64,000 nucleotides of DNA from Alphaproteobacteria bacterium LSUCC0684 (GTDB lineage Bacteria; Pseudomonadota; Alphaproteobacteria; Puniceispirillales; UBA1172). Of this stretch, positions 22,225 to 30,351 are shown piece after piece (within the stretch, counting starts at the first letter, position 1; every line of letters starts with the position of its first letter). A program made the position numbers and the translations under genes. The DNA lies in NCBI GenBank assembly GCA_041228335.1, contig CP166130.1, forward strand, positions 706,638 through 770,637, given 5' to 3'. The notes beneath the pieces are model-generated. The model made no database searches, was not told where the DNA came from, and saw only the letters and a list, made by a program, of their open reading frames with translations.

Positions 22225-23933
22225 TGGCGGTATCAATCTCGCGTAAAATCTATGCCGACATGTATGGCCCGACGACGGGTGACAAAATCCGCCTTGCCGA
22301 TACCGAATTATTCATTGAAGTGGAAAAAGACCTCACCAGCTATGGCGAGGAAGTCAAGTTCGGTGGCGGCAAGGTGATCCGCGACGGCATGGGGCAGTCG
22401 CAGTTGACCAGGCAGGACGGTGCCGTTGACACCGTCATCACCAATGCGCTGATTGTCGATGTTACGGGGATTTACAAGGCAGATATCGGGCTCAAGGATG
22501 GCGTGATCCATGCCATTGGCAAGGCCGGCAATCCGGATACCCAATCCGGCGTTGATATCGTCATCGGCCCCGGAACAGAGATCATCGCCGGGGAAAAGCA
22601 TATTGTCACCGCTGGCGGGTTTGACAGTCATATCCATTTCATCTGCCCGCAGCAGATTGATGATGCGCTTCATTCCGGCCTGACCACCATGCTGGGTGGC
22701 GGTACCGGGCCTGCCCATGGCACGCTGGCAACAACCTGCACCCCGGGGCCATGGCATATCTCAAGAATGCTTCAATCGGCGGATGCCTTTGCCATGAATC
22801 TGGCCTTTGCGGGCAAAGGCAATGCCAGTCTGCCCGGGGCGCTGGAAGAACAGGTTTCTGCCGGAGCATCGGCGTTGAAGCTTCATGAAGACTGGGGCAC
22901 CACCCCGGCTGCCATCGATACATGCCTTTCGGTTGCAGATGCCATGGATGTGCAGGTGATGATCCATACCGATACGCTTAATGAAAGCGGGTTTGTCGAG
23001 AATACCATTGCCGCGATCAGGGGCAGGGTGATCCATGCTTTCCATACCGAAGGTGCAGGCGGCGGCCATGCACCGGATATCATCAAGGTTTGCGGTGAGC
23101 CCAATGTCATTCCGTCATCGACCAATCCGACGCGGCCCTATACCGTCAACACGCTGGAAGAGCATCTTGATATGCTCATGGTCTGCCACCATCTCGACAA
23201 GTCGATCCCAGAGGATGTGGCCTTTGCGGAAAGCCGCATCAGAAAAGAGACCATCGCGGCGGAAGACATTCTGCATGACATGGGGGCATTTTCCATCATC
23301 GCGTCGGACAGTCAGGCCATGGGGCGTGTCGGCGAAGTGATTATCCGCACCTGGCAGACAGCCCATAAAATGAAAATCCAGCGGGGCAGGCTTGCGGAAG
23401 AGACAGGCGATAATGACAATGCCCGGGTCAAACGCTATCTTGCGAAATACACGATCAATCCGGCCATCTGCCACGGGTTATCCCGACATATCGGATCCAT
23501 CGAAGTCGGTAAGCGTGCCGATCTTGTGTTATGGCATCCGGCATTCTTTGGCGTCAAACCGGAAATGGTATTGCTTGGAGGGAGCATTGTCGTTGCGCAG
23601 ATGGGGGACCCGAATGCATCCATCCCAACGCCCCAGCCTGTCTATACAAGGCCGATGTTTGGCTCCTGTGGAGGCGCGGTGTCGGCATCGGCCGTGACTT
23701 TTGTGAGTGCGGCGGCGCAGTCTTCCGGCATCGGGGCATCCCTTGGTCTTGCCAATCAGACGCTGGCGGTGGAAAAAACGCGGAATATTTCCAAAGCCAG
23801 CATGATCCATAATGATGCCCTGCCACGAATTGAGGTTAACCCCGAAACCTATGAAGTCCGTGCCGATGGAGAGTTGCTGACCTGCGCCCCGGCAGAGGTG
23901 CTGCCCATGGCGCAGCGGTACTTCCTTTATTGA
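22224..23933 (+). CDS. ureC: Urease alpha (catalytic) subunit
   Basis: Hydrolyses urea to ammonia and carbamate at a di-nickel site. The nickel ligands are visible as SHIHF (about His136 and His138), the carbamylated Lys219 in [10 protein letters not shown], the later histidines in MIHTDTLNE and [15 protein letters not shown], and the flap residues around MVCHHLD. The [11 protein letters not shown] and [19 protein letters not shown] motifs complete the family pattern. Length is 569 residues, typical. ATG 22224 overlaps the ureB stop; GTG 22221 is an alternative start one codon upstream. Confidence 0.98.
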
Positions 23934-27496: not shown

Positions 27497-27901
27497 TTAG
27501 CTGATTTCCTTTTCTCCCTTGCTAAAGGCATTGAGTATGGGGCAGTGAGACCGGTTGTCTCCATCGCATGAAGAAGCAAGATGGCTGAGTTGAGCCTTGA
27601 GCGAGGCAAGCTCGGAGAGTTTCTGATCGATCTCGGCAATTTTATTGAGCGTCATCTGCTTGACTTCACGGCTTGGCCTGTTCTTGTCCTCGTAGAGCGC
27701 AAGCAACTCCCGGCATTCCTCCACCGAAAAATCAAACTTTCGCGCTGTGCCGACAAGTTGCAGTTTTGCAATATCGCTATCCGCATAGGCGCGATATCCG
27801 GTCGCCTTGTGGCGGGCGGGCACAATCATCCCGATATTCGCATAATAGCGGACCGTTTTTACCGTCAGGCCGGAGCGGTGAGCAGCTTCGCTGATATTCA
27901 T
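27497..27901 (-). CDS. cueR: Copper-responsive MerR-family regulator CueR
   Basis: Cu(I)-sensing transcription activator. The 134-residue protein has the MerR winged helix (MNISEAAHRSGLTVKTVRYY), a dimerisation coiled coil (about 75-108), and a C-terminal metal loop with Cys112 and Cys120 (SCDGDNRSHC) at exactly the positions and spacing of CueR. The Ser/Asp pattern between them also fits CueR and not the zinc or mercury members. It is divergent from a copper module, with an operator matching MerR-type promoters between them. Confidence 0.92.
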   Translation of the reverse strand: MNISEAAHRSGLTVKTVRYYANIGMIVPARHKATGYRAYADSDIAKLQLVGTARKFDFSVEECRELLALYEDKNRPSREVKQMTLNKIAEIDQKLSELASLKAQLSHLASSCDGDNRSHCPILNAFSKGEKEIS

Positions 27902-27912
27902 GTTTTTTCCTC

Positions 27913-27943
27913 TTTACCTTCCCCTTAGGGGAAAGCGTATAAG
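27913..27943 (+). promoter_or_regulatory. CueR-type promoter and operator
   Basis: -35 TTTACC (27913-27918) and -10 TATAAG (27938-27943) are separated by 19 bases, the long spacer characteristic of MerR-family promoters. The spacer contains the dyad TTCCCC-TTA-GGGGAA (27919-27933), matching known CueR sites. It drives the DUF4396 gene that starts at 27964. Confidence 0.82.
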
Positions 27944-27963
27944 GATATCAACAGGAGGTCAAT

Positions 27964-28410
27964 ATGAGCGCGATTGCAACAAGTGAAGGAATCAGCTGGA
28001 CCTGTCGGCACACCTGGCGGCGGGCATCGATCAATACGATGTGGTGTCTTATCGGCTGTTCCATCGGCGATATGGGAACAATACTTTTTTTCCAGGTGAG
28101 CGGCATTGACTGGCCGACGCTGGCGATCATGAGTCTGGCGATCATGAACGGTCTTTTGACGTCAATTATTCTTGAAACCATTATTCTTTCCCGGCAGATG
28201 GCGCTGGCGCTGGCGCTTAAAACCGCGCTTGGCATGTCACTCCTGTCGATGATTTCCATGGAAGTGGCGATGAATGCGGTGGACGTGATGCTCACCGGTG
28301 GAGCGCGGCTCACCTGGTGGGTATTGCCCATCATGCTGACGGCCGGGTTTATCACGCCGCTGCCGTATAATTACTGGCGGCTGAAAGCGCTGGGCAAGGC
28401 CTGCCATTAA
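27964..28410 (+). CDS. DUF4396 membrane protein, copper-regulated
   Basis: A 148-residue protein with about four membrane segments. The conserved features of DUF4396 are visible: NTMWCLIGCSIGD near residue 30, and PYNYWRLKALGKACH at the C-terminus. Methionine density is high in the central helices (MSLLSMISMEVAMN), and CxxxC is in the first helix, as would suit copper ligands. It follows the CueR-type promoter, so copper induction is expected. Its biochemical role is unknown; copper binding, export or handling is inferred from context. AGGAGG stands upstream of the ATG. Confidence 0.8.
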   Translation: MSAIATSEGISWTCRHTWRRASINTMWCLIGCSIGDMGTILFFQVSGIDWPTLAIMSLAIMNGLLTSIILETIILSRQMALALALKTALGMSLLSMISMEVAMNAVDVMLTGGARLTWWVLPIMLTAGFITPLPYNYWRLKALGKACH

Positions 28411-28427
28411 CACATTTGGGAATGGAG

Positions 28428-28910
28428 ATGATCCTGAAAACCAACGCCAAATCCGCAAGCCGACTTTATATCACCTCTCTTTTTGCGGGATCTTTCGTGG
28501 TGGTGTCTGGCGTGCTGATTGGCGGGTTGGCCCATGCCCATAAAGATGCAACCGGCATCGTCAAGGAGCGGATGGATAATTTCAAGAAAAGCCAGGAAAA
28601 CCTCAAATCCATCCGGCGGCTGATCCGGGATGGGGAGGCTGAAGCCATTGTCCCGCTGGCAGATGAGATCCGCAACTGGGCGGTTCGGATACCTGAATAT
28701 TTTCCCGAAGGCAGTGGCGCTGCGCCCTCCGAGGCTGCGGCCGCAATCTGGGAAGATGTTGAAGGGTTCCGAAAGGCCGCCAGAAGTCATGAACAGGCAG
28801 CGGATACACTTTCACGTCTTGCCCGAAGCGGCGATATTGCAGGGCTTGATGATGCTTTCGGGGAATTGGCGGGCAGTTGCAAAGCCTGCCACCAGCGGTT
28901 TCGGCAATAA
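28428..28910 (+). CDS. Class II-type c-type cytochrome (c556-like)
   Basis: A 160-residue exported haem protein. A signal peptide (residues 10-30, LFAGSFVVVSGVLIGGLAHA) is followed by a helical body and a C-terminal haem site CKACH (about residues 152-156), the layout of four-helix cytochrome c'/c556. A Met or other axial ligand is not obvious. It lies between DUF4396 and the multicopper oxidase and shares their direction, so it is probably part of the copper regulon. Start is ATG at 28428; TTG at 28416 and ATG at 28422 are alternatives. Confidence 0.82.
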   Translation: MILKTNAKSASRLYITSLFAGSFVVVSGVLIGGLAHAHKDATGIVKERMDNFKKSQENLKSIRRLIRDGEAEAIVPLADEIRNWAVRIPEYFPEGSGAAPSEAAAAIWEDVEGFRKAARSHEQAADTLSRLARSGDIAGLDDAFGELAGSCKACHQRFRQ

Positions 28911-28965
28911 TGCTGTTTTTTGATGAGTTTCAATTCTCTATGCTGATATCCGGGAAGGAAAATAC

Positions 28966-30351
28966 ATGATGCTGACTCGCCGTTCGATGATCCAGTCGCT
29001 CGCCGCATCAGTCGCCTTCACAGCGATCCCTGTGCCGGGGCTGGCGGGAGAGCAGGTTTATGATCTGACAGCCGCGCCAGCCGAATTCCCGCTTGCCGGA
29101 AGTGAAGGTGATCCGACCCGTCTCTGGCTCTACAACGGCACCTCGCCGGGGCCGCTGATCCGTGCCCGCAAGGGAGATATCCTCAAGGTGAATTTCACCA
29201 ACAGACTCGATCAGCCGACGACGGTGCACTGGCACGGCATCCGCAACATCAATGCCATGGATGGTGTGCCGGAACTGACCCAGCCTGCGGTTGAACCTGG
29301 TGAGACCTTTACCTATACCTTTCCTCTCCCCGATGCCGGGAGTTTCTGGTATCACGCCCATAACAAATCCTGGGAACAGGTGGCCCGCGGACTTTATGGT
29401 CCGCTGATTGTCAGCGAAGATGCGCCCAGGGCTGATCCACATGACATTCTCCTCGTTGCCGATGACTGGCGTCTGGATGAGGGCTATCAGCTTGATGAGC
29501 AGAGCTTTGGCTCACTCATGGACTGGTCGCATCAGGGGCGGCTTGGCAACTGGCTGACCATCAATGGAGAGAGCAGACCCCGGGTGAATCTGCCCCGGTC
29601 AACCGCCCGCATCCGCCTGATGAATACGGCCAATGCCCGGACCCTTGCGTTTCGTTTCGGGGATGGACTGCCTGTTGAAATCATTGCCCTTGACGGCGCT
29701 GCCTGCACGCCCTTCCGCACCGATACGATCCGGCTGGCGCCAGCCCAGCGTGTTGATCTTCTTCTTGATGGAAATGCGGAAATCGACGCTCTTTATGAGG
29801 TCAGCTCCAGCCGACCTTTTGCTGCGGCATGGTTTACCCGCAACGAGGAGGTGGCGGGCGGGAGCGGAAAACGTCTCCTTCCAGATCCGGCCCCGCTCTA
29901 CCCCATGCCCCTGATCGATGGTGCAACGATTATTCCGATCCACATGCAGGGGGGTGCCATGGGCAACCTTGCCGCCGCCGAATTCGAGGGCGAGGTGCTG
30001 CCCTTGCGTGAACTTGCGACCGAGCATTCCAAACTCTGGGCCTTCAATGGCGTGGTGGGGGGATATCATCATATCCTGGCTGATCTGTCGCTTGGTGAGC
30101 GCGCGGTTCTGCGTGTCCGGAACGATACGAGATGGGAGCATGCCATGCATCTGCACGGGCATCATTTCTGGGTCCGCTCGCGTGAATTCGGAGATCAGGA
30201 GCGGCATGTTCTGCGCGATACCTATCTGATGGCGCCAGGTGAAGAAGCCGATCTTGTCTTCATTGCCGATAATCCGGGCCTGTGGCTTTTCCACTGCCAT
30301 ATGCTTGAACATCATGCCGCCGGCATGGGCGGCGTGATCAGCATCAGCTAG
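28966..30351 (+). CDS. Multicopper oxidase (CueO/laccase type)
   Basis: Periplasmic oxidase that probably oxidises Cu(I) and limits copper toxicity. The 461-residue protein has a Tat-like N-terminus (LTRRSMIQSLAAS, then a hydrophobic run). The copper sites are HWHGI (His88/90), WYHAH (His130/132), HLHGHHF in the third domain, and HCHMLEHHAAGM (His443, Cys444, His445, His449 and Met454, the type 1 axial ligand). Only two clear plastocyanin-like copper-bearing domains plus a middle domain are needed for this length. The CueR regulator and operator upstream support the copper role. AAGGAAA precedes the ATG. Confidence 0.92.
   Translation: MMLTRRSMIQSLAASVAFTAIPVPGLAGEQVYDLTAAPAEFPLAGSEGDPTRLWLYNGTSPGPLIRARKGDILKVNFTNRLDQPTTVHWHGIRNINAMDGVPELTQPAVEPGETFTYTFPLPDAGSFWYHAHNKSWEQVARGLYGPLIVSEDAPRADPHDILLVADDWRLDEGYQLDEQSFGSLMDWSHQGRLGNWLTINGESRPRVNLPRSTARIRLMNTANARTLAFRFGDGLPVEIIALDGAACTPFRTDTIRLAPAQRVDLLLDGNAEIDALYEVSSSRPFAAAWFTRNEEVAGGSGKRLLPDPAPLYPMPLIDGATIIPIHMQGGAMGNLAAAEFEGEVLPLRELATEHSKLWAFNGVVGGYHHILADLSLGERAVLRVRNDTRWEHAMHLHGHHFWVRSREFGDQERHVLRDTYLMAPGEEADLVFIADNPGLWLFHCHMLEHHAAGMGGVISIS

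Follow-up and report, generated by a model that had tools for sequence, protein, structure and literature searches.

CopA-type ATPases are regarded as the usual route by which Cu(I) leaves the cytoplasm. In the E. coli CueR-CopA-CueO (Cue) system and the CueR/HmrR-CopA systems of Proteobacteria, this pump is accompanied by a sensor of the CueR family, a palindromic promoter with a 19-bp spacer, and a periplasmic multicopper oxidase (MCO). A 64,000-nucleotide stretch of the complete, 2,704,644-bp genome of Alphaproteobacteria bacterium LSUCC0684 (contig CP166130.1, positions 706,638 to 770,637 of the forward strand, here called the window) holds the same kinds of sensor, promoter, and oxidase, but the genome has no CopA P1B-type ATPase: a small membrane protein of the DUF4396 family stands in its place, and a cytochrome c' is also present. 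The CueR system itself is classic, and the DUF4396 partner is what differs. We read the locus as a copper-tolerance operon under CueR control; DUF4396 holds the place of CopA in it and most likely exports Cu(I) to the periplasm, an interpretation that we regard as moderately probable. A second point of comparison is cutFOG of R. capsulatus, which acts with CopZ-CopA; the likeness lies in an alphaproteobacterial MCO and a copper supply linked to export of cytoplasmic copper, since maturation of that MCO depends on CopZ-CopA export according to the available portion of PMC8456105. The window differs in lacking CopA and in carrying DUF4396 within the operon, and no cutF or cutG was recognized beside its MCO, with no search aimed at them having been made. 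The elements of the locus, in window coordinates, are as follows.

27497 to 27901, minus strand: cueR, MerR-family Cu(I) sensor of 134 amino acids (TIGR02044, alignment with 1q05)
27913 to 27943, plus strand: CueR-type promoter (sequence and genome-wide pattern search)
27964 to 28410, plus strand: DUF4396 membrane protein of 148 amino acids (PF14342, 69-row alignment, AlphaFold2 model)
28416 to 28910, plus strand: cytochrome c', class II c-type, exported, with a CKACH heme site (PF01322, solved relatives)
28966 to 30351, plus strand: three-domain MCO (PF07732, PF00394, PF07731, 4f7k)

The DUF4396, cytochrome c', and MCO genes follow the promoter on one strand with small gaps, divergent from cueR. 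CueR scores 150.3 bits against a curated TIGR02044 cut-off of 147.4 and its alignment with E. coli CueR (1q05, E 1.1e-27) spans the full length and matches Cys112 and Cys120 to their counterparts, bearing out an initial annotation, made from the DNA letters alone, that had named the regulator and both cysteines. The promoter hexamers are TTTACC (27913-27918) and TATAAG (27938-27943), and the intervening spacer (27919-27937) contains the dyad TTCCCC-TTA-GGGGAA at 27919-27933, which the same annotation had also recognized. Its description of a perfect 19-base-spacer promoter is right for the spacer, which is exactly 19 bp, and too generous for the hexamers, which depart from consensus. The stretch from 27913 to 27943 nevertheless combines the 19-bp spacer and ACCTTCC-type palindrome of a CueR target promoter. 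A genome-wide search for CueR boxes, proposed in the annotation as a check, left the window site alone at fewer than three mismatches: only the cueR-DUF4396 site matched with one mismatch and four other matches had three, while a reversed-pattern control gave five matches, equal to the total for the true pattern. The genome has two MerR_1 matches, of which only CueR is of the metal type; the other adjoins IHF-like and FabH-like genes. Judged by these patterns, CueR has one clear target in the genome.

The absence of a classical CopA, stated in the initial annotation, holds for the whole of this complete genome. Its single P-type ATPase, the only PF00122 match, is FixI/CcoI, so that a purely local absence of CopA could be rejected. 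The FixI gene lies directly 3' of a FixH-like gene, and the genome-wide pattern search placed no CueR site near it. FixI/CcoI is a CopA2-type ATPase that moves Cu(I) to the periplasm, and it serves cbb3 oxidase assembly in the account given in the consulted part of PMC7558416. Of the two elements that accompany CueR in a CueR-CopA efflux system, the genome therefore has the periplasmic MCO and not a CopA P1B-1 ATPase under CueR control.

What had escaped the annotation is that the absence of CopA accompanies one subgroup of DUF4396 across genomes and is not a local curiosity. We searched 289 genomes of the class for DUF4396, P-type ATPases, and CueR. DUF4396 exceeded its cut-off in 39, and 21 of these carried subgroup A (at least 64% identity, with the next best at 32%); three positive genomes (G071, G079, and G285) offered no locus by which to place them in subgroup A or B. 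Seventeen of the 21 subgroup A genomes had no P-type ATPase and four had one FixI each, while 188 of the other 268 genomes had at least one P-type ATPase. CueR exceeded its cut-off in 101 genomes, and 91 of the 92 that lacked subgroup A had a P-type ATPase. Where CueR lay within 2 kb of a subgroup A gene (nine genomes), six genomes had no P-type ATPase and three had only FixI (Fisher p 4.5e-7 for any P-ATPase in these nine against the 92, uncorrected for kinship). At least 54 of the 107 listed CueR genes had one of the listed ATPases no more than 5 kb away, and none was near both an ATPase and DUF4396.

The two genes also exchange among close relatives. Within one genus, G065 has cueR beside a CopA-type ATPase gene with a CueR-like box 5' of it and no DUF4396, whereas in G185 and G279 CueR adjoins DUF4396 and CopA is absent. 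Family-level contrasts pair G029 and G160 (copA beside cueR) with G258 (DUF4396), G208 (copA beside cueR) with G102 (DUF4396 without an adjacent CueR), and G080 (copA with a CueR-like box, on a contig other than that of cueR) with G288 (DUF4396). copA and DUF4396 therefore exchange within four families, one of the contrasts falling within a genus. In the order to which the window belongs, DUF4396 was found in 106 of 136 genomes and in 42 of the 43 of good quality, and P-type ATPases exceeded the cut-off in four of 136, all FixI-like and including the FixI of the window genome. Candidate CopA proteins among these sets did not hold up: the ATPases of G052, G276, G279, and G288 are FixI-like, as are three from genomes of the order, which are 53-66% identical to the FixI of the window genome.

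The association with copper is also visible in gene neighborhoods. We took the best 80 of at least 576 DUF4396 relatives from GTDB species genomes; these are 68-81% identical to the window protein and lie in Alpha- and Gammaproteobacteria, and contigs that end early are included in the counts. CueR was within 5 kb of DUF4396 at 47 of the 80 loci and divergent within 600 bp at 44. The same 5-kb distance took in a class I cytochrome c at 30 loci, CopC at 22, CopD at 20, an MCO at 16, a cupredoxin at six, and a cytochrome c' at four, and 58 loci had at least one of seven copper-type families. Pfam checks on examples bore out the assignments as CopC, CopD, and class I cytochrome c, and one such check did so for the cupredoxin. 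A CueR box, counted when it matched at least 0.7 of the CueR/HmrR consensus taken from the accessible text of PMC1526738, preceded DUF4396 at 49 of 78 loci, compared with 14 of 668 other genes and 18 of 1,560 shuffles; the 78 are the loci with enough sequence, L043 and L081 having been dropped. Because the boxes precede DUF4396, also at 12 of 36 loci not scored as having an adjacent divergent CueR, the regulatory link is with DUF4396 itself.

We consider the link between DUF4396 and copper, suggested by the initial annotation, to be well supported, with CueR, its boxes, neighboring CopC, CopD, MCO, and cupredoxin genes, and fusions to MCO domains all in agreement. The annotated module of DUF4396, cytochrome, and MCO is real in the window, but the low counts for MCO and cytochrome c' led us to reject it as one fixed unit elsewhere. 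As the trio is only one of several layouts, CueR and DUF4396 form the conserved core, and the cytochrome and MCO are accessory.

Other arrangements of the family were seen along the way. Subgroup A loci without CueR (L046, L048, L056, L071, and L077) adjoin an MTTB-type methyltransferase and its neighbor, and DUF4396 at these sites may be unregulated or otherwise regulated. Second copies 61-64% identical to the window protein occur in G286 (C58, L144) and G075 (C1, L145), each of which also holds a CueR-linked copy. Degenerate DUF4396 genes with internal stops were found in the order of the window at G613:C38:18821-19191, G574:C18, and G589:C29.

The window DUF4396 matches PF14342 over domain positions 1-141 of 141 (E 1.8e-36, 126.1 bits against a gathering threshold of 27) and has 12 Met residues in 148 amino acids; the initial annotation had described a Met-rich DUF4396 membrane protein. 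An alignment of 69 sequences, among them five distant members (subgroup B) that are only 24-27% identical to the window protein, has no variation at T25, C28, L29, G31, C32, G35, A59, S95, M99, E100, N104, G112, P134, and N136 and almost none at C147 and H148. An AlphaFold2 model is mostly helical (mean pLDDT 86.1, pTM 0.75) and may be read as having four transmembrane segments, with C28 and C32 in the first long helix and M99, E100, and N104 in the helix from 91 to 111. Positive charges at both ends suggest an inner membrane protein with both termini inside. Among the invariant residues, the Cys, Met, Asn, and Ser are similar in kind to the ligands at the membrane sites of CopA (Cys, Cys, and Tyr; Asn, Met, and Ser, as listed in PMC7558416), by resemblance and not homology. 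In two subgroup B genomes DUF4396 and an MCO share one open frame (L117:5338-7374 in G056 and L008:1270-3123 in G147), and a His-rich stretch and one extra predicted membrane helix lie between the domains; if DUF4396 ends inside, the extra helix would place the MCO outside.

The MCO matches PF07732, PF07731, and PF00394, as expected from its initial identification, and carries RRSMIQ as its twin-arginine signal; inspection of the translation by eye gave the copper ligand motifs HWHG, HAH, HLHGHHF, and HCHMLEHHAAGM. Its closest solved relative is the laccase 4f7k (E 8.8e-84), and it scores below the cut-offs for CueO (PRK10965, 135.2 versus 525) and for the CopA-type MCO (TIGR01480, 175.3 versus 478.95); from these comparisons it is laccase-like, and it may act as a cuprous oxidase. 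The cytochrome matches PF01322 (E 4.9e-25, 89.3 bits) and has CKACH near its C terminus, in keeping with the class II c-type cytochrome first described, and its translation more likely begins at an ATG further in, at 28422 or 28428. Its nearest solved relatives are cytochromes c', and a Phe aligns with the Phe of 1cpq. Cytochromes c' are usually gas-binding proteins, not electron carriers.

Beyond the operon, an AhpD/CMD-like peroxidase-related gene (TIGR01926, 30448-31029, plus strand) begins 97 bp 3' of the MCO and is possibly in the same transcript. A generic promoter and terminator scan gave no signal above chance, and a weak terminator-like stem lies at 28902-28915, between the cytochrome and the MCO. 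PADLOC returned no match. An Rfam match to 5_ureB_sRNA (120.4 bits, 22377-22664, minus strand) suggests conservation of ureB coding sequence, not a real small RNA, because urease genes are nearby.

Taken together, these data are best explained by DUF4396 being a small membrane protein that handles Cu(I) and, most likely, exports it without being an ATPase. In the proposed mechanism, cytoplasmic Cu(I) would bind CueR and reshape the 19-bp-spacer promoter, switching on DUF4396, the cytochrome c', and the MCO. DUF4396 would then take up Cu(I), most likely at cytoplasmic sites formed by C147 and H148, and pass it through the membrane by way of C28 and C32 and of M99, E100, M103, and N104 to the periplasm, where the MCO (or, in other genomes, CopC, CopD, and a class I cytochrome c) would oxidize or bind it. 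Export is the simplest link, because DUF4396 must handle cytoplasmic Cu(I) without CopA, while its operon partners are periplasmic. MerT, MerF, and MerC are small membrane proteins with conserved Cys residues in a transmembrane helix, encoded divergently from a MerR-family regulator, and DUF4396 resembles them in layout; because the partner enzymes of DUF4396 are periplasmic, export would be expected and not import. A CopA-free cell with an MCO would also need another source of periplasmic copper, given the requirement of the R. capsulatus MCO for CopA (PMC8456105, in the sections available).

Several observations weigh against a role as the exporter that replaces CopA. No ATP-binding or known transporter fold was recognized in DUF4396: a PDB profile search found no solved relative, and Foldseek gave no match with E under 0.001; the best VIA Z of 7.7 is within the range of common helical arrangements, and the missing profile and fold relatives are no evidence of a new fold. 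Subgroup B occurs in many genomes with two to nine P-type ATPases, so the function of the family is not simply that of CopA. At a minority of loci, 22 of 80, no gene from the seven copper-type families lies within 5 kb, the kind of neighborhood that the annotation had named as counting against a copper role, and three of these loci have a CueR box. Among the first 50 of the 80 loci genomes, which were searched for P-type ATPases, 37 had none and 13 had at least one; CopA-clade ATPases were present in five (G698, which is Sneathiella sedimenti, G706, G718, G735, and G738), which disposes of strict mutual exclusion with CopA, and the other eight had FixI-type, unclear, or unplaced ATPases. The genome that holds L049 has one ATPase, of the FixI-like kind. 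These 50 genomes hold 17 ATPases, of which L213, L218, and L219 yielded no DKTGT frame and were left out of the tree, and L215, L217, L220, and L221 are neither clear FixI nor clear CopA by identity. One class genome, G191, is the sole case of CueR without a P-type ATPase or DUF4396. There (L199, 6026-7885), CueR is divergent from a small unassigned gene, after which come genes for an HMA-domain protein that is exported and for a small membrane protein with Cys, MerT-like by eye; the locus is perhaps a third CopA substitute. Beyond lineages that are mainly marine, subgroup A is seldom found: a sample of 299 genomes across the phylum contained only the window genome itself at high identity to its DUF4396. 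Both traits could therefore have their cause in ecology. Incompleteness of metagenome-assembled genomes inflates the counts of absence, while complete or near-complete genomes (G000, G213, G261, and the good-quality genomes of the order) match the pattern. We conclude that the exchange of copA and DUF4396 is strong but not absolute, with shared descent uncorrected.

An unlikely alternative is that DUF4396 does not transport Cu(I) but retains it at the membrane, as a chaperone or sink from which the periplasmic MCO and cytochromes are loaded; detoxification would then proceed by binding and periplasmic oxidation. The natural MCO fusions would suit such a protein, as would the want of a recognized transporter fold and the His- or Met-rich tails of subgroup B proteins, which co-occur with CopA-type pumps. 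However, a chaperone or sink would leave CopA-free genomes with nothing else found to move Cu(I) from the cytoplasm, where CueR senses it, and invariant Cys, Met, Glu, and Asn lie inside predicted transmembrane helices. Less probable still is an electron transfer system, in which DUF4396 and the cytochrome pass electrons from Cu(I), directly or via the MCO, to the respiratory chain and so oxidize copper at the membrane. A c-type cytochrome of either class is directly 3' of DUF4396 in 21 of the 80 relatives, and CueR sites have been predicted before Vibrio cytochrome genes (PMC1526738, in the text consulted), but most loci have no cytochrome in that position, the window cytochrome aligns with the c' type, and by eye the DUF4396 alignment has no conserved heme ligand pair. 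The explanation we favor least, and think improbable, holds that the loss of CopA is a by-product of low metal and small open-ocean genomes, with DUF4396 an unrelated membrane protein common in them. Subgroup A is indeed concentrated in marine lineages, including some with streamlined genomes; against this, DUF4396 itself is linked to copper by CueR boxes and by a neighboring CueR, members of one genus or family differ in having copA or DUF4396, and DUF4396 without any P-type ATPase also occurs in genomes as large as 4-5 Mb (e.g., G185, G696, G725, and G727).

Export by DUF4396 remains our best reading; in many marine bacteria, the protein would have taken over the position of CopA under CueR. 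No function for DUF4396 (PF14342) was found in the open-access literature, and the family is mentioned in passing, at the margin of a metal-resistance island and with no function assigned, in the accessible part of PMC7760498. The available text of PMC4771312 reports SAR11 as lacking copA and names no substitute, and that of PMC10141476 surveys CueR in marine bacteria and does not name DUF4396. We would put at about even the chance of a broader proposal, that DUF4396 proteins form an unrecognized family of small Cu(I) exporters other than ATPases, which has displaced CopA from the CueR regulon more than once, carries out copper export in SAR116 and further abundant marine Proteobacteria, and elsewhere has been fused to an MCO as a one-chain device for export and oxidation. 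Cultured carriers of DUF4396, such as Sneathiella sedimenti and the CopA-free Amylibacter marinus, make direct testing feasible. If DUF4396 does substitute for CopA, a role can be given to a domain of unknown function, a route for Cu(I) that does not use an ATPase becomes testable, and surveys of metal resistance that count copA would need correction for many ocean bacteria.

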